Part shown: one piece after another, positions 19,868 to 33,120 of the stretch
Position numbering within the stretch: the first letter of the stretch is position 1
How the letters are laid out: each line of letters opens with the position of its first letter
DNA from: Gemmatimonadota bacterium
Lineage (GTDB): Bacteria > Gemmatimonadota > Gemmatimonadetes > Longimicrobiales > Gaopeijiaceae
Direction: 5' to 3'
DNA: 43,057 nucleotides
Assembly: GCA_007126575.1 (NCBI GenBank)
Contig: SLBA01000075.1
Location: forward strand, 1 to 43,057
Program-made: the position numbers and the translations under genes
Notes under the pieces: generated by a model
Told to the model about the DNA's origin: nothing
Seen by the model: only the letters and a program-made list of their open reading frames with translations
Database searches by the model: none

Positions 19868-19885
19868 CCCACAGCCGGAGGGCCC

Positions 19886-21220
19886 ATGCGAAACCCGGTT
19901 CACCCCCTGTCCCCCCGGATCCCCGGAAGCCGGCGGGGCGGGGTCGGTCGGTCGGCCACCCTCGCCGCGACCGTCTTCGCCCTTCTGGCCCCCACCGGGT
20001 GCTCTGACGCCGAGCGGTCCACCGACCCACCGGTGAACGAGCTGCCGGCGCTGACCCTGGTCGAGGAGCTCCGCCTGGGTGACGTCGACGACCCTGACGT
20101 GGGCTTCAGCCAGCCCTCGTCGGTCGCCCAGCGCCCCGACGGCACCTTTGCCGTGGTGGAAGCTCAGGGGCTCCAGATCCGCGTGTACGAGGCCGACGGC
20201 ACCCCACTGCACCGGTTCGGCTCGCGGGGCGAAGGACCGGGCGAATTCGGGATGGTCCCCTCGATCGGGTGGGTGGGGGACACCCTGTGGGCGATGGACG
20301 GGGGGCACGAGCGCCTGACCAATTTCCGGGCCGACGGCACCGTCCTGGGCGCGCATCGGATCGAGACCCTCGAGGTGCCGCTGCCCAGCGGCCGGGGAAC
20401 GATCTTCCCCATCGTGCCCCGCGAGGACGGCACCCTGACCGGGCACCTGGTCCGGGTGATGGTCCGCCAGGACGATCCCGAGACCGGGGTGGCGCCCGGT
20501 GACCGGATCCCCGTGCCCCTGGTCCGGTACGGCCTGCAGGGCCAGGTGCTCGACACCCTCGGGCTCCTCGACAAGCCCAATCCCCGGATCTGGTCGCGGG
20601 AGATCGCCCGGATCCCGGAGCCCGACATCATCCAGCTCGGCGATCGCAGGGTGCGGATCCCCGCTCCACCTCCCGCCCTGCCCTACTTCGAGGGGACCGA
20701 CGACGGATACGTGGAGTTTCGTGCCCCCACGCCCTCGGGAGGCGGAGTGCACGAGGTCGAGATCTACCGCGTCCATCCCGGCAGCGACACGGTCTGGGCC
20801 CGGAGCCTGCGCTGGCGTCCGGTCGCCTACACCGCCGAGGACCTGGACTCGATCGCGACGCGTGCCGCGCGGAGCGGGGGCGGGTTCACGGCCGCGGGAG
20901 GGAGCCCCCCGTCACCCCCGGAGGGGTGGGAGGAGCTGCGCGACCGGATCCAGACCCGAATGGACTTCCCCTCGCACCAGCCGTTCGCTTCGGCGACCTG
21001 GCTCGGCAATGACGGTACCCTGTGGATCCGGCTGCGGGGCCCGGAGTCCGCCACCCAGGTGGAGTGGCTCCGGGTCGGCGCCGACGGCGAGCTGCGCGGG
21101 CGGTTGATCCTGGGAGTGCAGGACCGCCTCCTGTGGAGCCACGGAGACGAGGTCTGGGTGTCGGAGCCCGACGACCTCGGGGTCCCCTGGCTCGTCCGGT
21201 ACCGGATCGAGGCGGACTGA
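19886..21220 (+). CDS. Six-bladed beta-propeller-like exported protein
   Basis: This 444-residue exported protein has a basic, hydrophobic leader ending at a possible lipobox (ALLAPTGC, Cys39). The lipobox is imperfect, so periplasmic release is also possible. The body shows NHL/6-bladed-propeller-like repeats: PSSVAQRPDGTFAVVE, LQIRVYEADGTPLHRFGSRGEGPGEF, LWAMDGGHERLTNF and a late blade WLGNDGTLWIRL. The motif GSRGEGPGEF is typical of this propeller type. A Pro/Gly-rich insertion lies near residues 330-350. A GGAGG Shine-Dalgarno precedes the ATG, and the gene follows the aldehyde dehydrogenase by 18 bp, so co-transcription is likely. The ligand or partner is unknown. Confidence 0.83.
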   Translation: MRNPVHPLSPRIPGSRRGGVGRSATLAATVFALLAPTGCSDAERSTDPPVNELPALTLVEELRLGDVDDPDVGFSQPSSVAQRPDGTFAVVEAQGLQIRVYEADGTPLHRFGSRGEGPGEFGMVPSIGWVGDTLWAMDGGHERLTNFRADGTVLGAHRIETLEVPLPSGRGTIFPIVPREDGTLTGHLVRVMVRQDDPETGVAPGDRIPVPLVRYGLQGQVLDTLGLLDKPNPRIWSREIARIPEPDIIQLGDRRVRIPAPPPALPYFEGTDDGYVEFRAPTPSGGGVHEVEIYRVHPGSDTVWARSLRWRPVAYTAEDLDSIATRAARSGGGFTAAGGSPPSPPEGWEELRDRIQTRMDFPSHQPFASATWLGNDGTLWIRLRGPESATQVEWLRVGADGELRGRLILGVQDRLLWSHGDEVWVSEPDDLGVPWLVRYRIEAD

Positions 21221-21251
21221 CGCCCAGACCTCTCCGGGGCGTGCGTCAGTC
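21215..21251. terminator. Bidirectional terminator-like inverted repeat
   Basis: GACTGACGC at 21215-21223 pairs perfectly with GCGTCAGTC at 21243-21251; an inner CGCCC/GGGCG pair can form instead. It overlaps the stop codons of the two convergent genes. There is no U-tract, so it may act as an RNA-end stabiliser or a rho-assisted stop. Confidence 0.45.
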
Positions 21252-22346
21252 GTGGCCGGCGGCGAGGGGGAGCTCGAGGCGGAGTCGTGTGCCGCCTTCC
21301 CTTCGGGAGTCCACCTCGAGGGTGCCTCCGACGAAGCGGGCTCTCTCGTGCATGCGCAGCAGTCCGACCCCGTTGCCCGCGACCCGCCCGGGATCGAACC
21401 CGACACCATCGTCCTCGACCTCGACCTCGAGGGCGTCGGGGCCGCGTCCGATACGGACCACGAGCGTCGAGGCGTGCGCGTGACCGAGGGCGTTGGCCGC
21501 GGCCTCCTGCACCACCCGGTAGAGCACCAGGGACTGGTCGGGAGCCAGGAGCGAATCGGGATCTCCGCCTTCGACCCGGACGGTGACCCCCGTCCCCTCG
21601 AAGCGCTGTCGAAGGTGTGCCTCGATCGCCTTGCGCACCCCGAGTTCGTCGAGCTCCGGTGGGCGGAGCCCGCGGGCGATCCGCTGGATCCCGGCCAGAG
21701 CGGAGAGGGCTTCCCGTCGGGCCCCCTCGAGGGCGATTTGACAACGGGACCCCGACGTTTCGCTGCCGGCCGCCTCTGCGGGCAGACAGCGGGCGACCAG
21801 CTTCAGCTGCAGAAGGATCGACGAGAGCAGCTGCGCGGTCTCGTCCAGGAGCTCGTGCGAGATCCTCTTTCGCTCGAGCTCCTCGGCGTCGAGAAGACGG
21901 GCCGAGAGCTCTCGCTGCCGCACCCGCGAGGCGGCCAGGGCCGCGAGCATGCTGTTGAGACCGCCGGTCAGCCGCTGAAGACTCCGGTCGGCAAGGGGCG
22001 AGAGGGCGATCGTCGTGTCGAGATTGCCCTCCTCGACCCGTCGGGCCGCGAGTTCGACGTCTCGCAGTGGGCGGAGGGCAAGGTGGACGAGCAGCCAGTT
22101 GAGCGCGACCAGCGCCAGGAGTCCCACCGACCCCCAGGCCAGGATCTGGGGGTCCGAAAGGGTCGGTGCGACAAGGGCGCCCCAGCCGGCCGCCGCCACT
22201 GCGAGCACCGAGTTCGCCACCACGATCTTCAGGGGAAGCGGGGCCCTGAGCGGTCGGGTCAGCCACCCGGGCACCCCGGTCTCACGACGGGACTCGGAGC
22301 CGCTCCGGCTCCCGGTATCACCTGCGGCTCGTTGCTCCATGGGCAT
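21246..22346 (-). CDS. Membrane histidine kinase, NarX/LiaS (HisKA_3) type
   Basis: This 366-residue sensor kinase has two membrane helices (about residues 39-60 and 70-92) with almost no periplasmic loop between them. A HAMP-like segment (LRPLRDVELAARRVEEGNLDT) follows, then HisKA_3 with His164 in KRISHELLDETAQ and HATPase boxes (YRVVQEAAANALGHA, DDGVGFDP, GVGLLRMHERA). The near-absence of an extracytoplasmic domain suggests sensing within or below the membrane. The ATG at 22346 was chosen for a GGAG 6 nt upstream. No regulator is adjacent on its strand; it is divergent from a second HisKA_3 kinase whose NarL-type partner it may share. Confidence 0.92.
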   Translation of the reverse strand: MPMEQRAAGDTGSRSGSESRRETGVPGWLTRPLRAPLPLKIVVANSVLAVAAAGWGALVAPTLSDPQILAWGSVGLLALVALNWLLVHLALRPLRDVELAARRVEEGNLDTTIALSPLADRSLQRLTGGLNSMLAALAASRVRQRELSARLLDAEELERKRISHELLDETAQLLSSILLQLKLVARCLPAEAAGSETSGSRCQIALEGARREALSALAGIQRIARGLRPPELDELGVRKAIEAHLRQRFEGTGVTVRVEGGDPDSLLAPDQSLVLYRVVQEAAANALGHAHASTLVVRIGRGPDALEVEVEDDGVGFDPGRVAGNGVGLLRMHERARFVGGTLEVDSRREGGTRLRLELPLAAGHD

Positions 22347-22528
22347 CTCGATCTCCGACCGGTCGGTTCCCCTCGGTGGTGGTGGACCCTGAAATGTTGC
22401 ATCTTCCGGCCGGTCGATCTGTCGGGATCTGGCTGAGAGCCGTGTGGGGAAATCCTCCACACCGGTCGCACGCCACCGCCCGAATCCCGGATCGACGCTC
22501 GCTCACGACCCGCATGGGGAGACTCTGC

Positions 22529-23611
22529 ATGGCCTCGGACTCCGACACCCCCACCTTCAACGCCTTTCGCGCGGTCTTCGATTCCGCACCGGACGGCATT
22601 CTGATCGTGGACTCCGAAGGAATCATCCGGGAAGCCAACCCGCAGTCTCTCCGGATTCTGGGGTTCGAGCGCGACGATCTCCTGGGGGGAGCCGTCGAGC
22701 GCGTCGTTCCCCCGGACTCGCGGGGGCCGCACCAGGCGATGCGCGAAGCGTACGCCTCGAACCCGCATCGGCGACCGATGGGGGCCGGCATCGAGCTCCG
22801 GGCCCTCCGCTCCGATGGTCGCGAGGTTCCGGTCGAGATCTCGCTGAGCCCCTGTTCGACCCCCGAGGGCGACTTCGTGATCGCGGCGATCCGAGACATT
22901 TCCGCCCAGCGCAAGCTGAGGCGCCTGGGCTCCGGCGCGCTGAAGGCTGCGGAAGAGGAACGGCAGCGCATCGCCCGGGAGCTCCACGACGACACGGCGC
23001 AGTGTCTCGCCGCCCTGCTGATCCGCCTGCGCCTCCTCCGCAACGCCCGGAACGAGGGGGAGCGAGTCCGGCTCCTCGACGAGATGCAACGAGAGCTGGG
23101 GGTGGCGATGGAAGGTGTCCGCCGGATCTCGCGAGGGCTTCGTCCTCCGGCTCTCGACGACGCCGGGCTCGAGACGGCGCTGCGGAGCCATTTCCGCTCG
23201 GTCGTGGAGCCCTCGCCACTCGTGGGCCGCATCGGACTGGAGCCGGTGGGCCCCCAGCTGGACACCGAGACCCAGCTCGTCGTCTACCGGATCGTCCAGG
23301 AATCGCTGGCGAATGTGATCCGGCACTCGGGGGCCGAACGCGTCTCCCTCGAGATGGCGGGCGAAGGCCCCGTGATCCGGGTAACCATCGCCGACGACGG
23401 TCGCGGCTTCGATGCCGCCTCGCAGCTCCTCGACGGATCGGGGCTGGGACTGATCGGGATGCAGGAGCGAGCCCGGCTCGTCGGTGGAGATCTGTCGATC
23501 GAAAGCGTCCCGGGTAGCGGAACCCGCATCAACCTGACGGTTCGTCGTGAACCCGGCCCCACCCCCATGCCAGCCCACCCCATCGCTCACCAGGATGTCC
23601 AGCATGGCTGA
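22529..23611 (+). CDS. Soluble PAS histidine kinase, HisKA_3 type
   Basis: This 360-residue cytosolic kinase has an N-terminal PAS domain (about residues 10-128; SAPDGILIVDSEGIIREANPQSLRILGF, PVEISLSP, IRDISAQ). HisKA_3 follows with His153 in RQRIARELHDDTAQCLAALL, then an HATPase (YRIVQESLANVIRHS, DDGRGFD, GLGLIGMQERA). This is the layout of NarX/DegS-like kinases that signal to NarL-type regulators, and such a regulator begins inside its last codons. The ATG at 22529 was preferred to upstream ATGs because GGGGAG sits 7 nt upstream. The PAS domain shows no obvious cofactor motif. Confidence 0.93.
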   Translation: MASDSDTPTFNAFRAVFDSAPDGILIVDSEGIIREANPQSLRILGFERDDLLGGAVERVVPPDSRGPHQAMREAYASNPHRRPMGAGIELRALRSDGREVPVEISLSPCSTPEGDFVIAAIRDISAQRKLRRLGSGALKAAEEERQRIARELHDDTAQCLAALLIRLRLLRNARNEGERVRLLDEMQRELGVAMEGVRRISRGLRPPALDDAGLETALRSHFRSVVEPSPLVGRIGLEPVGPQLDTETQLVVYRIVQESLANVIRHSGAERVSLEMAGEGPVIRVTIADDGRGFDAASQLLDGSGLGLIGMQERARLVGGDLSIESVPGSGTRINLTVRREPGPTPMPAHPIAHQDVQHG

Positions 23612-24266
23612 CCCGATCCGAATCCTGCTCGCCGACGACCACGCGATCTTTCGCGCGGGGCTGCGCGCGCTGATCGAACTCGAAGACGATGTCGTGCTCG
23701 TGGGCGAGGCGCCCGACGGCGACGCGGCCGTCGACCTGGCCCTCGAGCTCAGGCCCGACGTGATCGTGATGGACCTGTCGATGCCCGGCACCAATGGCCT
23801 CGAGGCGACCCGGCGGATCGCCGCGCTCGACATCGGGGTCCATATCCTGGTGCTCACGGTGCATGCCGAAGAGGAGTACCTGGTCCCGGTCGTGGATGCG
23901 GGCGCCTCGGGCTACCTCACCAAATCGAGCGCCGACACCGACCTGATGGAGGCGATCCGCGTGGTGGCACGTGGCGAGGTCTACCTGCCGGCCCGCGCCA
24001 CGACCCTCCTTCTGAAGCAGTACCGGACCAACGAGGACGATGCCGATCATGGACAGGGGCTTCGGGACCTGAGCGCCCGGGAGCGCGAGGTCCTGGCCCT
24101 GACCGCCGAGGGCTTCTCGTCGTCGGAGATCGGCAAGAAGCTCTACATCTCACCCAAGACCGTCGACACCTACCGCTCGCGCATCATGCAGAAGCTGGGG
24201 CTGAACCATCGCTCCGAGCTCGTGCGCTTCGCGCTCCGTGTCGGTCTGCTCAAGGAGCTCGAGTGA
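23604..24266 (+). CDS. NarL/FixJ-type response regulator
   Basis: This 220-residue regulator has an N-terminal receiver with Asp11-Asp12, phosphoacceptor Asp57 in VIVMDLSMPGTNG, the Thr in LVLTVHAEEEY and the Lys in GYLTKSSADT. The C-terminal LuxR-type helix-turn-helix (about residues 150-215) contains LSAREREVLALTAEGFSSSEI and SPKTVDTYRSRIMQKLGL. It overlaps the end of the kinase gene, so the two form a pair. AGGA lies 8 nt before the ATG at 23604; an ATG at 23595 is the alternative. Its stop overlaps the GTG of a D-aminoacylase-like gene (GTGA), an uncommon coupling of a regulator to a hydrolase. Confidence 0.94.
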   Translation: MADPIRILLADDHAIFRAGLRALIELEDDVVLVGEAPDGDAAVDLALELRPDVIVMDLSMPGTNGLEATRRIAALDIGVHILVLTVHAEEEYLVPVVDAGASGYLTKSSADTDLMEAIRVVARGEVYLPARATTLLLKQYRTNEDDADHGQGLRDLSAREREVLALTAEGFSSSEIGKKLYISPKTVDTYRSRIMQKLGLNHRSELVRFALRVGLLKELE

Positions 24267-26014
24267 GCGCGCGGATGCAGGCCCGCCGACGCACCGTCCC
24301 CCCGATGCACCTGCTGATTTCGGCGCTGGCGGGGCTGGTCCTTTCCGGGTGCGGGGGCGACCCCCCGGACGCTCGGGATGTCGAGGCCGACGACCCCGGG
24401 GCCGAGGTGCACGCCCCCCCCGTCACGGGACCCGTCGACTGGCACCTGGCGGGTGGACGGATCGTCGACGGGTCCGGCTCCGAGCCCCGGATGGCCGACG
24501 TGCTCGTGCAAGACGACCGGATCGTCTTCGTGGGCCCCGTGGATCCCGACACCCTCGAGATCCTCGAGCGCTTCGACGCGACGGGCATGGTGATCACCCC
24601 GGGATTCATCGACTCGCACGCGCACGGCGACCCCCTTTCGACTCCGGCCTTCGAGAACTTCCTCGCGCAGGGGGTCACCACGATACTCCTGGGTCAGGAC
24701 GGCTCCAGCCCCCCCGCGGGTGAGCTCGGCGCACACCTCTCCGAGGTCGAACGCTCCGGCGTCGTCCCGAACGTGGCGTACCTGGCGGGGCACAACACCC
24801 TGCGTGGAGAATCGGGGCTCGGCTTCGGGACCGGCAGCGACGAGGCGGCGCTGGCCCCCCTCGTCGGACTCGTCGAGACGGCGCTCGAAGCGGGAGCCTT
24901 CGGCCTCTCCCTCGGACTCGAGTACACCCCCGGTCAGCTGGCCGGAGACGAGGAGCTCGCCGCGATGGCGCGCCCCGTCGCAGCCCGCAATGGCGTGGTG
25001 ATGAGCCACATGCGGACCGAGGATGCGGGTGCGGTCGCCGGGGCCGTCGACGAGCTGCTCGAGGTCCGGCGGCGCACCGGGGCCCGCGTGCACGTCTCGC
25101 ACATGAAGGTCGTGCTCGGCTCGGACCCGGGCGAGGCGACCGGGATCCTCTCGATGATTCAGGAGGCCCGGGCAGCCACCGCGGGCGGCAGCGCACATAC
25201 CCCCGACGGTACCGGGGGGGTGACGGGCGACGTCTACCCCTACCTGGCCAGCTTCACCGGGATCGCGATCCTCTTTCCCGACTGGGCTCGCCCCCCGAAC
25301 GACTACGACGCCGTGCGGGCGGAGCGGGGCGATGAACTGGCCGCACACCTGAGAGACCGGGTGAATGCGCGAAACGGTCCCGAGGCCACCCTCTTCGGCA
25401 CCGGCCCCTGGGCCGGGCGGACCCTCGCCGAGGCCGCCGAGGCCGAGGGGCGCCCCTTCGAGGAGTTGCTCGTCGAGCTCGGTCCGGGAGGCGCACGGGC
25501 GGCCTATTTCGTGATGGACCCGGGGGTGATGAGCGTCTTCCTGACCGACCCGCACGTGGCGATCTCCTCGGACGGGAGCCCCACCATGGGCCATCCGCGA
25601 GGGTACGGAAGCTTCGCCCGGGTGATCCGTCAGTACGTCCTGGACGAGGGTCTGCTCACCCTGGAGGAGGCCGTGCGGAAGATGTCGGCGCTCCCGGCCT
25701 CGATCATCGGGCTCGACGACGACGCCCGAGTCGAGGTCCCCCGGGGTCGGATCCTGCCCGGATGGGCCGCCGACCTGGCGGTCTTCGACCCGGAGGCCTT
25801 CATCGACCGGGCCGACTTCCAGGACCCGCACACCCTCGCCGAGGGGATGGCCGGGGTCTGGGTGAACGGCACCCTGAGCTGGACCGGGGGCGCTCCCGTC
25901 GCGAGTGCGCGCGACGGTCGGGTGCTTCGCGACCGGGGATCGCCCCCATCCCCCGAGGCCCCCACGGAAGACCTCTCCGACACCGAATCGAGTCCGAGCC
26001 ACGAAGGAGGCTGA
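24263..26014 (+). CDS. Lipoprotein of the D-aminoacylase (N-acyl-D-amino-acid deacylase) family
   Basis: This 583-residue amidohydrolase-superfamily protein is targeted to the envelope by a lipoprotein signal (lipobox LVLSGC, Cys30). Metal-site signatures are ITPGFIDSHAHGD near residue 115, RVHVSHMKVVLG near residue 280 and ISSDGSPTMGHPRGYGSFARV near residue 435. Family members cleave N-acyl groups from D-amino acids or related D-peptides. The usual GNCGxS motif, whose Cys bridges the metals in the characterised enzyme, appears here as GQDGSS, so Asp replaces Cys. The C-terminal 40 residues are a Ser/Pro/acidic tail. The GTG start overlaps the NarL-regulator stop. A downstream amidohydrolase begins at the very next base after the stop. 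Confidence 0.9.
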   Translation: MSARMQARRRTVPPMHLLISALAGLVLSGCGGDPPDARDVEADDPGAEVHAPPVTGPVDWHLAGGRIVDGSGSEPRMADVLVQDDRIVFVGPVDPDTLEILERFDATGMVITPGFIDSHAHGDPLSTPAFENFLAQGVTTILLGQDGSSPPAGELGAHLSEVERSGVVPNVAYLAGHNTLRGESGLGFGTGSDEAALAPLVGLVETALEAGAFGLSLGLEYTPGQLAGDEELAAMARPVAARNGVVMSHMRTEDAGAVAGAVDELLEVRRRTGARVHVSHMKVVLGSDPGEATGILSMIQEARAATAGGSAHTPDGTGGVTGDVYPYLASFTGIAILFPDWARPPNDYDAVRAERGDELAAHLRDRVNARNGPEATLFGTGPWAGRTLAEAAEAEGRPFEELLVELGPGGARAAYFVMDPGVMSVFLTDPHVAISSDGSPTMGHPRGYGSFARVIRQYVLDEGLLTLEEAVRKMSALPASIIGLDDDARVEVPRGRILPGWAADLAVFDPEAFIDRADFQDPHTLAEGMAGVWVNGTLSWTGGAPVASARDGRVLRDRGSPPSPEAPTEDLSDTESSPSHEGG

Positions 26015-26857
26015 ATGCCCCGCATGATCATCGATTGCCACACGCACCTCAACAACTACGACGAGGCGCGCCCGAACACCATCGAGAAGCGGACCGAGGC
26101 GCTGCTGGCCTCGATGGACGAGGCGGGGATCGATCATGCGGTGGTGCTGAGTTCGTACACCGCGAATGCCCACCGCCCGCACATCGACGAGCTGATCGAG
26201 GCCGTGGGGGACCACCCCAGGATCAGCCTGGTCGAGGGACTCCGCTGGCGCTACGACGAGGAGCGGACCGACCTGTTCCGGATGGAGGAGCGGATCCGCG
26301 ATGGACAGGTGAAGGGGATCAAGCTGTATCCGGGCTACGATCACTACGCGATCAACGACCCCTCACTCGAGTCGGTCTTCCGGATCGCCGCGAAGCACGA
26401 CGTGCCGGTGATGATCCATACGGGGGACACCTACTCGGCGCATGCCAAGGTGCGACACGCCCACCCGCTCCTGGTCGACGACGTGGCGGTGGATTTTCCC
26501 GACGTGCGCTTCCTGATGTGTCATCTCGGGAACCCCTGGTTTCAGGACTGCGCGCAGGTGCTCTACAAGAACGACAACGTCTACGCCGACATCTCCGGGC
26601 TCACCCTGGGCGACTTCGAGTACGAGTTCGAGCGCTACGTGATGCAGCGGGTGAAGGACATGCTCGTGTACATGGGTCAGCCCGGGCGCCAACTCCTGTT
26701 CGGGACGGACTGGCCGCTGGCCGGAATGCGAAGCTACGTTCGGTTTTTGGAGGGGATGGAGGTCAGCGACGAGGATCGGGAGCACATCGCGTGGGAGACC
26801 GCGCGGGATCTCTTCCGAATCGAGGTGGAGCCCGAGGTGGAGCCCGACGGGGACTGA
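26015..26857 (+). CDS. Amidohydrolase-2-type TIM-barrel metal hydrolase
   Basis: This 280-residue cytosolic protein of the amidohydrolase-related family (COG2159-like) belongs with decarboxylase/hydrolase TIM barrels. The N-terminal IIDCHTHLNNYDE carries the HxH metal ligands; later come GIKLYPGYDHYAIND, PVMIHTGDTYS, FLMCHLGNPW and LLFGTDWPLAG, which supplies the final Asp. The substrate is unknown. A near-perfect AAGGAGG lies just before the ATG, inside the end of the upstream deacylase gene, so the two are cotranslated. The next gene is convergent. Confidence 0.9.
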   Translation: MPRMIIDCHTHLNNYDEARPNTIEKRTEALLASMDEAGIDHAVVLSSYTANAHRPHIDELIEAVGDHPRISLVEGLRWRYDEERTDLFRMEERIRDGQVKGIKLYPGYDHYAINDPSLESVFRIAAKHDVPVMIHTGDTYSAHAKVRHAHPLLVDDVAVDFPDVRFLMCHLGNPWFQDCAQVLYKNDNVYADISGLTLGDFEYEFERYVMQRVKDMLVYMGQPGRQLLFGTDWPLAGMRSYVRFLEGMEVSDEDREHIAWETARDLFRIEVEPEVEPDGD

Positions 26858-28114: not shown

Positions 28115-29407
28115 ATGGCCCCTTCGAAAGCAGAGACCCAGGAAGTCAAGCGCAGATGGCGCATTCCCCCTCCGGTCCTCCGGGGACCGGACACACTGGG
28201 GCCCGAGGGACTGGCGGTCCTCGAGGAGCTCCGCAGCGACCTGGGGCTCCTACTCTGGAAGCAGCTGCGCTCCGTGCTCCTGTGGGCCGACGTCTCCCCT
28301 TCGGAGCGTGTGGCGCTCTTCCCCGAGGAACTGGCCCCGAGACGGCAGGCCGAAATCCTGGCCGTCCTCCCCGAAGAGGACCACGACCTGCGGGGCCCGC
28401 TCGAGGAGCTGCTCGAGGTGATCGCGCGACCCGACCGTGTGGATCCGGAGCGGATCGGTCTGGCCTGCTCCAGGGTGGCGAGCTGGGCCGAGGGGGAGGG
28501 AGCACAGGGCACGGCGCTGGAATTCCTGCAGGCGGCCGCGGTCTCCTGCCCCGCGAACCCCCGCTTCGCCCTCGCGGTGATGAAGACCTCGAGAGACCTG
28601 GCGCAGTATCCGCGCGCCGAAGCATGGTTTCACCGAGTGGTCGGGCTCGCACGGCAGTGCCGGGACTGGGAGACCTATATCCGGGCCTACATCGCCCACG
28701 GGACGATGATGCTGCGCAAGGGGGCCCTTCCGGCCGCACGGCGCAGCTTCCTGAAGGCCTACCGCAGGGCGGCGCGCCAGGGGCTCAAGGAGGTGAGGGC
28801 GATGGCCCTCCATGACCTCTTCGTGGTCGAGTACCATCTCGGCAACGAGGAGAAGGGGGACGAGTATGCCGCCGAGGCCGTCGCGCTCTACGGACCCGAG
28901 CACGAGCGCTTCCCCCGGATCGCTCACGACATCGCCTTCGTCTGGCTTATGAAGGGAGCCTACGAGAACTCGATGAAGGTGCTCGAGAGTGTGCTCCCCC
29001 GCCTCCCCGATTCGGCGCAGTCGACGGTGAACGGCACGTTGGCGCGCGCCGCTGCCGGAGCCGGCGCCCCCGAGGTCTTCGAGTCGGCCCGAAAGCGCCT
29101 GCGCGCCTTTCCGGACCACGCCGGACTCGCCGAAGCCTGGGTCGAAGTCGCCCGGGGAGCGCTCATCCTGGGACGGCACGAGGAAGCGCGCGAGGCAGCG
29201 GTGAAAGCCGAATCCCTCGCGCGCCGAAGACTGGAGGGCCAGGTGCGCTTCATGGCCGAGTCGGTCCTCGACGCGGTCAACGCCGAAGAGAAGGCCGCGA
29301 TCCACCTGCGGGAGCTCCCCGCGGCTCCCCGATCACGCAGCCGGGACGAACTCGAGGTGAACATCGTCGAGGGCCTCCGCAAGTCGGCGCTCGCAGCCTC
29401 CGGCTAG
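28115..29407 (+). CDS. TPR-like helical repeat protein
   Basis: This 430-residue soluble, alpha-helical protein has no signal peptide. From about residue 130 it consists of TPR-like helix pairs rich in Ala/Leu/Arg: AQYPRAEAWFHRVVGLARQ, GALPAARRSFLKAYRRAARQG, GNEEKGDEYAAEAVALYG, GAYENSMKVLESVLPRLP and GRHEEAREAAVKAESLARR. The first 130 residues are helical with no recognised domain and no evident DNA-binding motif. GGAG lies 8 nt before the ATG. It is convergent with a tiny lipoprotein gene. TPR proteins are protein- or peptide-binding scaffolds; the partner is unknown. Confidence 0.83.
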   Translation: MAPSKAETQEVKRRWRIPPPVLRGPDTLGPEGLAVLEELRSDLGLLLWKQLRSVLLWADVSPSERVALFPEELAPRRQAEILAVLPEEDHDLRGPLEELLEVIARPDRVDPERIGLACSRVASWAEGEGAQGTALEFLQAAAVSCPANPRFALAVMKTSRDLAQYPRAEAWFHRVVGLARQCRDWETYIRAYIAHGTMMLRKGALPAARRSFLKAYRRAARQGLKEVRAMALHDLFVVEYHLGNEEKGDEYAAEAVALYGPEHERFPRIAHDIAFVWLMKGAYENSMKVLESVLPRLPDSAQSTVNGTLARAAAGAGAPEVFESARKRLRAFPDHAGLAEAWVEVARGALILGRHEEAREAAVKAESLARRRLEGQVRFMAESVLDAVNAEEKAAIHLRELPAAPRSRSRDELEVNIVEGLRKSALAASG

Positions 29408-29452: not shown

Positions 29453-29677
29453 TCAGCCGCCGGAGCCGAGGAAGCCGCCGAAGCCACAGGTGACCTCGCC
29501 GTCTTCGTCCTCGTCGCAGTCATCGTCGCCGTCGCCATCGTCCCCGCTCTGCTGGTCGAAGGCGGCCTCCATCTGGACCCCGTCATCGACGGGCAGATCG
29601 GTGGGAGACGAGAGGCCACAAGCCGGAAGGAAGAAGGCGATGGCCAGGAACAGGGCAAGAATTCGAGTGACGGACAT
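29453..29677 (-). CDS. Small Asp-rich lipoprotein
   Basis: This 74-residue protein is almost entirely a lipoprotein signal (MSVTRILALFLAIAFFLPAC, lipid-modified Cys20) plus a short mature part. The mature part contains a dense Asp/Glu run (about residues 48-63), two further Cys and a Gly-rich end (GFGGFLGSGG). The acidic run suggests cation binding or electrostatic contact, but no family is recognised. A GGGGA lies upstream of the ATG, and a good sigma-70-like promoter lies about 110 bp upstream. Its composition is unlike a random frame in this GC-rich DNA. It is convergent with the TPR gene and divergent from the AraC-type regulator gene. Confidence 0.7.
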   Translation of the reverse strand: MSVTRILALFLAIAFFLPACGLSSPTDLPVDDGVQMEAAFDQQSGDDGDGDDDCDEDEDGEVTCGFGGFLGSGG

Positions 29678-29789
29678 GGTGCGATCCCCTTTGCACGTAA
29701 GGATGGGCTCCCCGCTGCACGGCGGGGGTGACACACTGAAGATCTGGGGACCGTCTGCCATGTGCCCACATAGATTTCGTCAAAATCAT

Positions 29790-29819
29790 ATCATATTCCG
29801 TCTTTAGATGCGTATTCAA
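29790..29819 (-). promoter_or_regulatory. Sigma-70-like promoter for the small lipoprotein
   Basis: On the minus strand, TTGAAT (29819-29814), an 18-bp spacer and TATGAT (29795-29790) fit a -35/-10 pair. They lie in the most AT-rich stretch of the neighbourhood. The start point would be near 29783, giving a leader of about 105 nt. The -35 box overlaps the start codon region of the divergent regulator gene at 29808, so that gene's product or polymerase could interfere with it. Confidence 0.5.
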
Positions 29820-30626
29820 CCCCGTCCGCTCCTCCTGATGCACGAAAACCGGCTTCTGCGGGAACGGGTTCGTCGCGCCGCCCGCGACCGATTCCGACTG
29901 ATCGCGGTCGACGACTGGGATGAGCTCAGGGAGGGGATCTCGCAGGCGCCTCCGGCAGCGATCGCACTCGTCGATCCGTACCAGGGGCAACCGGAGGGCG
30001 ACGGACCGTCGCTCGAACTCCACGACATTCTGACGTCCTTCCCGTCGGCTACCGTGATCGTCGCGATGGACACCGAATCCTCGGGGTACCGGGATCTCTG
30101 GCTTCTGGGAGAGTGGGGGATCGCCGAGGTCCTGCAGATCTACGAGGATACGAGCCAGGGGGCCCTTCGCCGCCGGCTCCTGAGCGCCCGGGCGCAGCCG
30201 CTGCGCCGACTCCTCGCGCACGATTCGACGATCCAGCTCACCGGAAGGGCACGCAGCATTCTCGATGCGGCCGTAGCCACCGTGATGGTCGGGGGCTACC
30301 CGAAGGACATGGCCCGCTCGCTGCGGTTTTCCCCCTCGACCATGTTGCGATGGTGCGAGCGCTCCCAGCTGCCGACGCCCCGCCGGCTCCTCCTGTGGAT
30401 GCGCATGCTCTTCGCCGCCGCGCTCCTCGACGATCCCGGGCACTCGGTGTTCAGCGTGTCGCTGGCCTGCGGGTATTCCGGAGATCAAGCCCTCCGCCGG
30501 GCGCTGAAGAGCGTGGTTCCACACTCCCCGACGCAGCTTCGGAAGATGGGGGCCTTCGAGACCGTCTCCCAGGCCTTCTTCGACGAACTGGCTTCGCTTC
30601 GGGACCTCGACCAGGATCGAGTCTGA
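29808..30626 (+). CDS. AraC-type regulator with a degenerate receiver-like N-terminus
   Basis: This 272-residue protein has an N-terminal region (about residues 5-125) that looks like a receiver fold: strand-helix alternation, ALVDPYQG at the phosphoacceptor position and VIVAMDT at the Thr strand. The acidic pair and the conserved Lys are not evident, so phosphorylation is doubtful. The C-terminal region (about 165-250) resembles an AraC-type double helix-turn-helix: DMARSLRFSPSTMLRWCERSQ, then VFSVSLACGYSGDQALRRALKSVVPHSPTQLRKM. No Shine-Dalgarno precedes the ATG, so the transcript may be leaderless or the start may be internal (ATG at 29838). It is followed after 1 bp by a kinase gene, with which it likely forms an operon. 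Confidence 0.8.
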   Translation: MRIQPRPLLLMHENRLLRERVRRAARDRFRLIAVDDWDELREGISQAPPAAIALVDPYQGQPEGDGPSLELHDILTSFPSATVIVAMDTESSGYRDLWLLGEWGIAEVLQIYEDTSQGALRRRLLSARAQPLRRLLAHDSTIQLTGRARSILDAAVATVMVGGYPKDMARSLRFSPSTMLRWCERSQLPTPRRLLLWMRMLFAAALLDDPGHSVFSVSLACGYSGDQALRRALKSVVPHSPTQLRKMGAFETVSQAFFDELASLRDLDQDRV

Positions 30627-30627
30627 C

Positions 30628-31794
30628 ATGGTGACGAATCCCCGAACACCCGACCCCGCGGAGGGACCTGCCGGAGCCCCTCCCGACGCGCAGGCCATGG
30701 CGGCCTTCGGAAGGATCTCCGCCGAGCTCCTGCACGACCTGGCGGGGATGCTCGCCACGATCTCCGGACGTGTGGCGCTCGCGAACGAAGGGGCGGCACG
30801 CGGTCGACTTCCCAGCGACGAACTTCCACGCATCCAGGAGGATACCGAGGAGCTTCGCCGCATGATCACCGAGATCCTCGACGAGCTTCGGGGAGGCCCC
30901 CGCTCCCCCGAGGTGACCTTCTCACTTCGCGAGTCGGTCGAGGCCACCGTGGACCGCTGGGTCCAGAGCGCCCCGTCGGTGAACACGGTGCTGCGGAGTT
31001 CGCTGGAGTCGTCGGCCGAGGTCGCCGGCCCCCGGAGCTTCTTTTCGAGGACGCTCTGGAACCTGCTTCGGAACGCGGGCCGCCACGCGCACTCCCGCGT
31101 CCGGCTGACGCTGGAGCCGGGGCTTCGGCCCGGTACCGCCGTGCTCAGAGTCGAGGACGACGGCCGCGGGGTCGACGAGAGCATGGCCGACGAGCTCTTC
31201 ACCCCCTTCATCCGGGGAGAGGGCGGCGGGATGGGACTTGGGCTCTCGTTCGGCCGATGGGCCCTCGAGAGCCTGGGTGGCTCGCTCGAATACAGCGGCC
31301 GGTCCGAGGCGCTCGGGGGAGCGGAATTCCAGGTCACCGTGCCCCTCCTTTCTCGTCGCAGCCATCGGTCGCTGCGACGCAGCTGGGAGTCTTCGGGGAG
31401 CCCCGAGGCCGTCGCGTCCCCCCGACCGCTCGATGGACTCGGACTCGTTCTGGTCGACGATGAGCCCGCGCTCCTCTCCGTACTCGCCCGGATCCTGCGG
31501 CGAGCGGGGGCGCGAGTCGACGAGATCGATGCCCGTGAGATCCGGAACGCCGAGGGGCTGGCCGTGGTCCTTAGCGGCCACACCCCCGACGTCGTCCTAC
31601 TGGACCTGAACCTCGGCGGATTCACGGCTCTCGAGCTCCTTCCCCTCCTGCAACGGGATCAGCCGGCGCTCCTCGAGCGAGTGCTTCTTTTGACGGGGGG
31701 CGAGCCCCCGGACCCGGCCCCGGACTGCCCGGTGGTCCACAAGCTGGCCGAATGGGAAGTGCTCTTCCGGGAAATCCGCCATGTCGCCGACTGA
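30628..31794 (+). CDS. Histidine kinase-receiver hybrid
   Basis: This 388-residue soluble protein has a short Pro-rich N-terminus, then a HisKA-like dimerisation region with likely phospho-acceptor His36 in ISAELLHDLAGMLATI. An HATPase follows (LWNLLRNAGRHA, DDGRGVDES, GMGLGLSFGRWALESLGG). A C-terminal receiver (about residues 270-388) carries LVLVDDEPALL, VVLLDLNLGGFTALE and LLLTGGEP, with a probable Lys in PVVHKLAEWE. There is no sensory domain, so input may come from a partner protein. It sits 1 bp after the AraC-type regulator and 12 bp before the heme oxygenase gene. Confidence 0.88.
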   Translation: MVTNPRTPDPAEGPAGAPPDAQAMAAFGRISAELLHDLAGMLATISGRVALANEGAARGRLPSDELPRIQEDTEELRRMITEILDELRGGPRSPEVTFSLRESVEATVDRWVQSAPSVNTVLRSSLESSAEVAGPRSFFSRTLWNLLRNAGRHAHSRVRLTLEPGLRPGTAVLRVEDDGRGVDESMADELFTPFIRGEGGGMGLGLSFGRWALESLGGSLEYSGRSEALGGAEFQVTVPLLSRRSHRSLRRSWESSGSPEAVASPRPLDGLGLVLVDDEPALLSVLARILRRAGARVDEIDAREIRNAEGLAVVLSGHTPDVVLLDLNLGGFTALELLPLLQRDQPALLERVLLLTGGEPPDPAPDCPVVHKLAEWEVLFREIRHVAD

Positions 31795-31806
31795 CCCGCT
31801 CCTCCG

Positions 31807-33120
31807 ATGACGCTCAATCCGACACCGGTCCGCACGCGCCTGAAGGAGGAGACCCGCGGGGTACATCGGCGCACCGAGGACCTCCCCTTCTTTCACGCGC
31901 TCCGGGAGGGCCGCCTCAGCCTCGACGCCTATCGCGGATACCTCGTGGCGCTCCGGATCATCCTTCGCTCCCTGACCGAAGGGATCCAGGATGCGCATGA
32001 CCCGCGCGTGTCCGCTCTCGGTGGGGAGGACGGATTTCGCCTGAACACCCTCCAGGGTGATCTCGACTCCCTGGAGCACGCTCGACCCAGGGAATCCCGC
32101 GAGGCCGGGTGGCACCCCCATCCCCGCGCGATCGTGCGCGCCCACCTGATGGCCCAGCAGATTCGGGCGAGGGCCCGACGCTCCCCCGCCTCGCTCCTGG
32201 GAACCGCCTACGTCCTTCATGGATCGGTGATGGGCGGTCCGACCCTGGGGAAGTGGGCCGCAGATGCCTTCGGTCTGCGCAGGGCTTCGGGGGCGGAGTA
32301 CCTGTCCGGTGAGCGGGAGCGGGCGCGGGCCGGGTGGGAACGGCTCCTGGAGCGCCTCCATGCAATGGAACTCTCGGAAGATGAGACCGAAGAGGTCATC
32401 CGGGCCGCGGTCGAGGCCTTCGAGGGATTCGGTGCCGTCGTCCAGGCGCTCCACCCGGAGCCCGAAGACCTTCGAACCCTTCCTCTGCAGGACCTGAATC
32501 CCAGCGCGGGCGACCACCCGATCACCGTGGACCCCCTCGAACTCGAGGCGGCGTTGCGGGCAGGGGAGGACTCCTGGAACCGCTTCCCCTATTACGCCGA
32601 ACGCTATGGCTCCCGGGGAGCGGCCTTCACCCGCAGTGACAGCGCGTGGCTGGTCACCCTCGCTCGGGCGCCCCAGGAGGCGGCCCTGGCGAACGTTCTG
32701 TGGCTGAGCCGGCTCCTCTCGACGCGGGGCATGCCGCGGTGGCTCATGGAGGAGCACCTCCTCCGACTTCACGAGCGGCTCGTCGATACCACTCCCGCGC
32801 CCGCAGGGAGCTGGCGGAACCTGCTGCTCGCGGCCGAGACCCTCCGGGAAATGCGCACAGCTCACGTCACCGACGACGAGATGGTCTCCATCTCGGAGGC
32901 GTTCGACGCATCTGCAGGGGCGTCGTTCACTCGGCGCTTTCCCGAAACCGGAGCCCTTATCGCCGCGGCCGTGGCGGACGAGGCGGACGGGATTCAGGGT
33001 GCCACCCGGTCGGTTCGAGACTGGTTCACCAGCAGACGCAGATTCACTTCGTCGACGATCCAGGCGGTGAAAGCCGCCGTCGTGGCTTCGGAAACTGCGG
33101 TTCAGGCCCGTTCCCGCTGA
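31807..33120 (+). CDS. Heme oxygenase with a long C-terminal extension
   Basis: Residues about 1-195 of this 437-residue protein form a heme-oxygenase domain that would open heme to biliverdin, CO and Fe2+. The candidate proximal heme ligand is His20 in ETRGVHRRTED, at the position used in bacterial HmuO/BphO enzymes, and the distal-helix glycines are in YVLHGSVMGG (Gly139-Gly144). Typical bacterial enzymes stop near 200-220 residues. The remaining 240 residues are a mostly helical region of unknown family with PYYAERYGSRGAAFTRSDSAWL near 277-298 and a second helical part to the end. It is the third gene of the regulator/kinase operon. No bacteriophytochrome is in the window. The Shine-Dalgarno is weak. 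Confidence 0.87.
   Translation: MTLNPTPVRTRLKEETRGVHRRTEDLPFFHALREGRLSLDAYRGYLVALRIILRSLTEGIQDAHDPRVSALGGEDGFRLNTLQGDLDSLEHARPRESREAGWHPHPRAIVRAHLMAQQIRARARRSPASLLGTAYVLHGSVMGGPTLGKWAADAFGLRRASGAEYLSGERERARAGWERLLERLHAMELSEDETEEVIRAAVEAFEGFGAVVQALHPEPEDLRTLPLQDLNPSAGDHPITVDPLELEAALRAGEDSWNRFPYYAERYGSRGAAFTRSDSAWLVTLARAPQEAALANVLWLSRLLSTRGMPRWLMEEHLLRLHERLVDTTPAPAGSWRNLLLAAETLREMRTAHVTDDEMVSISEAFDASAGASFTRRFPETGALIAAAVADEADGIQGATRSVRDWFTSRRRFTSSTIQAVKAAVVASETAVQARSR

Follow-up and report, generated by a model that had tools for sequence, protein, structure and literature searches.

A heme oxygenase fused to a bilin-type globin beside a sensor-less hybrid kinase in a Gemmatimonadota bacterium

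The window analyzed here is a whole contig of 43,057 bp (SLBA01000075.1; C196) of a Gemmatimonadota bacterium of the order Longimicrobiales, whose genome (G000) is 3.68 Mb in size and 96.5% complete. It contains three genes that encode, in this order, an AraC-type regulator, a soluble hybrid histidine kinase and a heme oxygenase (Table 1), separated by gaps of 1 and 12 bp, as a first-pass annotation of the sequence had reported. The nearest genome (G080) has the identical gene order with gaps of 3 and 12 bp. Between the two genomes the amino-acid identity is 98% for the regulator (ratio of nonsynonymous to synonymous substitution rates, dN/dS, ~0.015), 85% for the kinase (dN/dS ~0.14) and 88% for the oxygenase protein (dN/dS ~0.12); all three genes show purifying selection in this comparison.

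Computational analysis divides the third protein (P0003) into two domains. The first-pass annotation rightly saw a heme oxygenase but took it for a plain enzyme: Pfam family PF01126 covers residues 9–213 only (61 bits against a cut-off of 23), and residues 219–437 form a second domain that had been overlooked. The oxygenase half, with its proximal histidine (H20) and distal-helix glycines (G139 and G143) present, looks intact and is predicted from its sequence to make biliverdin.

The second half has no match in Pfam or NCBIfam. Its AlphaFold2 model (predicted local distance difference test, pLDDT, 93.9) is all-helical, which rules out an FDBR-like fold. When VIA-align was run over the candidates of Foldseek, the first 16 of 50 rows were phycobiliproteins, the photocobilin 8j2x (Z 9.1) and smURFP, with Z scores of 9.2–6.8 and root-mean-square deviations of 2.3–3.2 over 106–117 residues, followed in lower rows by secretion gatekeepers, globin-coupled sensors and hemoglobins (Z ≤ 4.5 for the last); most rows cover only model residues 1–136. 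A 59-row profile of this half matched the globins of two FDBR/B12 gene clusters at E-values of 7.6e-16 and 2.3e-16, the next match, one true family member aside, being at 0.43. Both clusters also hold an FDBR (above the Pfam cut-off), a B12-binding protein and kinases, and their globins carry RGMC, the motif that marks BBAG-2, for which biliverdin adducts have been demonstrated (Rockwell et al., 2023, PMC10151467). From this content and motif we infer that the two clusters belong to the published BBAG-2 group. The window protein has RGMP instead and contains no cysteine at all; it is therefore regarded as a relative of BBAG-2 and not filed under it. Residue D278 is invariant in the 59 rows and aligns, weakly, with the Asp of the smURFP chromophore motif; it may be equivalent to the Asp through which photocobilin makes a key contact to biliverdin (Zhang et al., 2024, PMC10979010). 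Comparison of the globin half with solved structures by sequence alone gave no link, also when started from an FDBR-cluster globin. The assignment of the two domains, oxygenase and bilin-type globin, is strong, and we have moderate confidence that the globin half would bind a bilin. Two FDBR clusters (L196 and L197) contain a B12-binding protein, an RGMC globin and two kinases, and in L196 a heme oxygenase gene lies in the same row.

Homology to the RGMC globins at the profile level is one likeness to BBAG-2 (Rockwell et al., 2023); another is that relatives of the window globin are linked to heme oxygenase and B12-binding proteins. Apart from the altered motif and the missing cysteine, the window globin differs in being fused to the oxygenase and in having neither an FDBR nor a B12-binding neighbor in the window (the genome itself was not searched for FDBR). 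With photocobilins and photoglobins (Zhang et al., 2024) it shares a fold of biliverdin-binding globins that lack a covalent Cys link, as the match to 8j2x illustrates, but their partner is a B12-binding domain, whereas here it is a heme oxygenase. Identity with photocobilins is ruled out since the P0003 chain bears no B12-binding domain; four matches to B12-binding_2 lie elsewhere in the genome, none of them on this contig. BphO of bacteriophytochrome operons, which makes biliverdin for a biliprotein, also contains PF01126, but in the present case the genome has no phytochrome and the putative biliprotein resides on the oxygenase's own chain. Genes for an oxygenase, a globin and a phytochrome stand in a row in Magnetospirillum. 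No description of a heme oxygenase–globin fusion was found in the literature searched (the photoglobin paper PMC8717448 and supplements lay outside its scope).

The absence of a bacteriophytochrome, already stated in the first-pass annotation, is confirmed by the lack of any match to PF00360 (PHY) in the genome, which rules out a phytochrome partner. Nor is heme oxygenase always phytochrome-linked elsewhere, which would have counted against the first-pass annotation: PF01126 occurs at 15 places in 14 of the 154 genomes of the order, and PHY in nine of the 154. Eight of these oxygenase places have a PHY match nearby on their contig, and seven have none (G000, G080, G068, G086, G133, G134 and the second copy in G045). 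P0003 itself finds matches in 21 of the 154 genomes: six are fusions (G000, G080, G068, G086, G045 and G076, the last missed by the Pfam search and found by the protein search), 12 are second halves without a recognized oxygenase domain joined to them, and three are oxygenases alone. Five of the six fusion genomes have no PHY match. Among 395 genomes from the phylum, 17 match P0003 at E ≤ 1e-20.

A scan of a genome collection with a single peptide pattern yielded 46 loci in Gemmatimonadota, Myxococcota, Chloroflexota, SAR324, Pseudomonadota, Thermodesulfobacteriota, Acidobacteriota and Actinomycetota. Since the pattern contained RGMP, it accounts in part for the conservation of this motif at the 46 loci, and relatives with RGMC would escape it. 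The oxygenase is fused to the globin at 16 loci and encoded by a separate gene at five; a B12-binding protein is encoded at 12, a histidine kinase at nine (one being the G080 locus itself) and a phytochrome at three, all of Magnetospirillum. As a control, 35 arbitrary stretches of the same genomes (39 fetched, four of < 3,000 bases dropped; 360 kb against 510 kb for the loci) included three with a kinase and none with an oxygenase, B12-binding protein or phytochrome. The census profiles were built partly from the same loci, which then match by construction, but the near-empty control stretches indicate that they are not promiscuous, and key neighbors were confirmed by Pfam. Further fusions with the same parts, outside the 46 loci, were found in G173, L201 (Azonexus), L269 and L272; L201 is accompanied by a B12-binding protein and a kinase, L269 by a B12-binding protein and L272 by a kinase upstream. 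A tree of 58 globin rows leaves the deep branches unresolved, and the fused state changes seven times compared to 16 times in shuffles, so that a single fusion event and multiple ones are indistinguishable. One Chloroflexales gene (L137, 2462–4360, forward strand) encodes one heme oxygenase domain followed by a pair of globin halves, and another heme oxygenase gene adjoins it. At six Intrasporangiaceae loci (L143, L145, L146, L147, L149 and L150), in genomes without PF01126, some 100–165 residues precede the globin half, and in the three scanned these match no Pfam family.

The kinase has no sensor domain, as had been noted from the sequence: the Pfam scan finds only HATPase_c and a receiver, both above the cut-off. 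In an alignment of 12 rows, its phospho-acceptor H36, its N and G boxes and the receiver residues D277, D278, D326, T356 and K372 are invariant or nearly so; the copy in G086 has lost the H and G boxes. The family is present in 24 of the 154 order genomes at E ≤ 1e-30. The regulator carries HTH_18 at residues 168–246, above the Pfam cut-off, while its N-terminus has no match in the Pfam scan. In its model (pLDDT 86), an AraC-type helix-turn-helix follows five alternating strands and helices, and the response regulators NarL, StyR and FixJ are its top Foldseek matches (best E 5.9e-5); structure prediction thus recovers the receiver-like fold that the first-pass annotation had proposed. That annotation also reported the acidic pair to be absent, and 19 aligned rows agree (M-H-E-N in its place, with H12 invariant). 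The usual T/S and K of receivers are absent as well, but 17 rows retain the beta-3 Asp (D56) and two have Asn at this position, so that the term pseudo-receiver fits the sequence of the N-terminus while phosphorylation may still be possible. Compared to a hybrid kinase with an AraC-type response regulator, the kinase core and receiver are complete and the regulator has a receiver-like fold, but the kinase lacks a sensor and the regulator lacks the acidic pair and the Lys.

The upstream regions of the regulator genes have in common a direct repeat whose period is 21 bp. Its exact pattern, the only form searched for, occurs in eight of 15 genomes tested, always directly upstream of the regulator, and once only in the window's genome; the reversed pattern gave no match in the 15 genomes. 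This position suggests that the regulator may control its own expression, with the repeat as candidate operator. Four overlapping matches to the pattern also occur away from the regulator, in a short tandem array with a 21-bp period on a contig of G068 (C279, 104–195; L262–L265).

Homologues of the regulator are found in 97 of the 154 order genomes at E ≤ 0.001; similarity among AraC proteins in general contributes to this number. Of 30 regulator loci, 24 encode a TPR homologue upstream, 15 have the kinase downstream and two have the oxygenase, some missing neighbors reflecting contig ends. The TPR protein and the regulator form the older, conserved unit, which the kinase joins in half of the loci, and the TPR protein, as the most constant neighbor, may be the regulator's real partner. 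Recurrence of the trio in other genomes had been proposed as a test of the first-pass annotation, and in this respect it fared poorly: the trio is confined to two of the 154 order genomes (G000 and G080), both of the same genus, and at 26 loci with P0003 relatives from the order and phylum searches, tblastn found regulator or kinase homologues in the flanks only at G080. It is quite possible, without being probable, that the fusion merely shares a transcript with its neighbors and is a self-contained heme-degrading or biliverdin-holding protein, for iron recycling or as a bilin sink, while the regulator–kinase pair responds to another signal, perhaps by way of the TPR protein. The neighbor counts given above speak for this explanation, as does a third genome of the genus (G079), where the TPR, regulator, kinase and outer-membrane-type genes follow each other in order and no oxygenase gene lies between the last two; in G068, G086 and G076 the fusion is located elsewhere, and the stretches retrieved contain no kinase. 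On the other hand, the 12-base spacing is kept in both trio genomes, and kinases adjoin fusions at L132, L156, L201 and L272.

We nevertheless incline to the view, which we consider somewhat probable, that the operon combines a biliverdin-making oxygenase, fused to a bilin-keeping globin, with a sensor-less kinase. The oxygenase half would make biliverdin from heme and the globin half, as a member of the phycobiliprotein/photoglobin/BBAG-2 superfamily, would keep it, presumably with no covalent thioether bond because the protein has no cysteine; the fusion would then be a biliprotein that supplies its own chromophore. The soluble kinase would probably take its signal from the fusion, either red light or the occupancy by bilin, which would reflect the supply of heme and oxygen, and would act on the receiver-like regulator, which in turn would control its own operon through the direct repeat. 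The case for signaling from the fusion through the neighboring kinase is weak. That the protein is a self-sufficient bilin sensor, which makes biliverdin, holds it in its globin and reports its state to the kinase, is a tentative idea and rather unlikely; the state reported would depend on light (red or far-red) or on how much heme and oxygen is available.

Several observations weigh against the view we favor. Foldseek alone gave no significant match for the second-half model (best E 0.29), and VIA-align Z scores below ~13 may arise by chance for helical models; in sequence, this half is linked to smURFP only weakly (probability 1.7%). Among the 16 fusions, L119, L122 and L125 lack the heme-binding His, and the distal motif is altered or absent in these three and in L133 and L137. 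No PF01126 match was found in 14 of 39 carrier genomes, including the six Intrasporangiaceae tested, so that biliverdin would there have to come from another source or the domain would have another ligand. Moreover, the trio is limited to one genus in which G079 does without the fusion, and the BBAG-2 proteins studied are photoinert (Rockwell et al., 2023). The carriers without PF01126 and the weak link to smURFP, together with a structural comparison that provides no residue-level alignment, would also suit a second half that is globin-like but binds heme, another ligand or none, and serves the oxygenase as a dimerization or heme-delivery module. However, bilin globins rank above heme globins in the structural comparison, the profile matches RGMC globins and the domain is associated with heme oxygenase, and we consider such a module unlikely.

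The first-pass annotation had listed heme, CO, iron and biliverdin as candidate signals. Biliverdin is a good candidate ligand in view of the globin half, which that annotation had not seen, but no finding speaks for CO or iron. A system for heme stress that contains an ordinary heme oxygenase and has heme, CO or iron as its signal would agree with the adjacency of the genes and the intact appearance of the oxygenase half. It is nevertheless distinctly unlikely: the enzyme has its second, globin-like half, a Pfam scan of six proteins of the region shows no heme-uptake family, and the genes found next to it in other genomes encode B12-binding proteins, kinases and phytochromes.

What BBAGs do has yet to be established (Rockwell et al., 2023). 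Oxygenase and globin in one chain, present in several phyla and often near kinases and B12-binding proteins, make this question directly testable, since the globin could be loaded without the help of another gene. If the fusion were a self-sufficient sensor, oxygenase–globin fusions would constitute a widespread class of sensors distinct from phytochromes, and BBAG-type globins would gain a function. The fusions may also supply compact far-red chromoproteins.

Table 1. Features of the regulator–kinase–oxygenase region, with positions in the window.
Feature	Position	Strand	Basis
TPR protein, 430 aa, conserved partner upstream of regulator	28115..29407	+	TPR_12; homologue upstream in 24/30 loci
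Direct repeat ATTYCRTC-N13-ATTYCRTC, candidate operator of regulator	29774..29802	+	Exact pattern in 8/15 genomes
AraC-type regulator with receiver-like N-terminal domain, 272 aa	29808..30626	+	Pfam HTH_18; model, Foldseek; conservation
Soluble hybrid histidine kinase-receiver without sensor domain, 388 aa	30628..31794	+	Pfam; alignment of 12
Heme oxygenase–globin fusion protein (P0003), 437 aa, no cysteine	31807..33120	+	
Heme oxygenase domain; H20, G139, G143 kept	31807..32445	+	PF01126 E 1.9e-16; own-genome match 31831–32445
Bilin-binding-globin-like core of second half (model residues 1–134); D278, RGMP 307–310	32461..32862	+	VIA-align, profile, motifs
Helical C-terminal extension of second half (model helices 138–218)	32863..33117	+	Outside structural matches; fold predicted

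Two further observations concern the surroundings of the operon. A small divergent gene (29453–29761, reverse strand), which G080 has as well, separates the TPR gene from the regulator, and its product has a signal-peptide-like start, a lipobox-like Cys and a strongly acidic tail. Farther upstream, a segment of ~6.2 kb (19871–26024) that includes a response regulator and further genes is absent from G079, where its flanks join directly.

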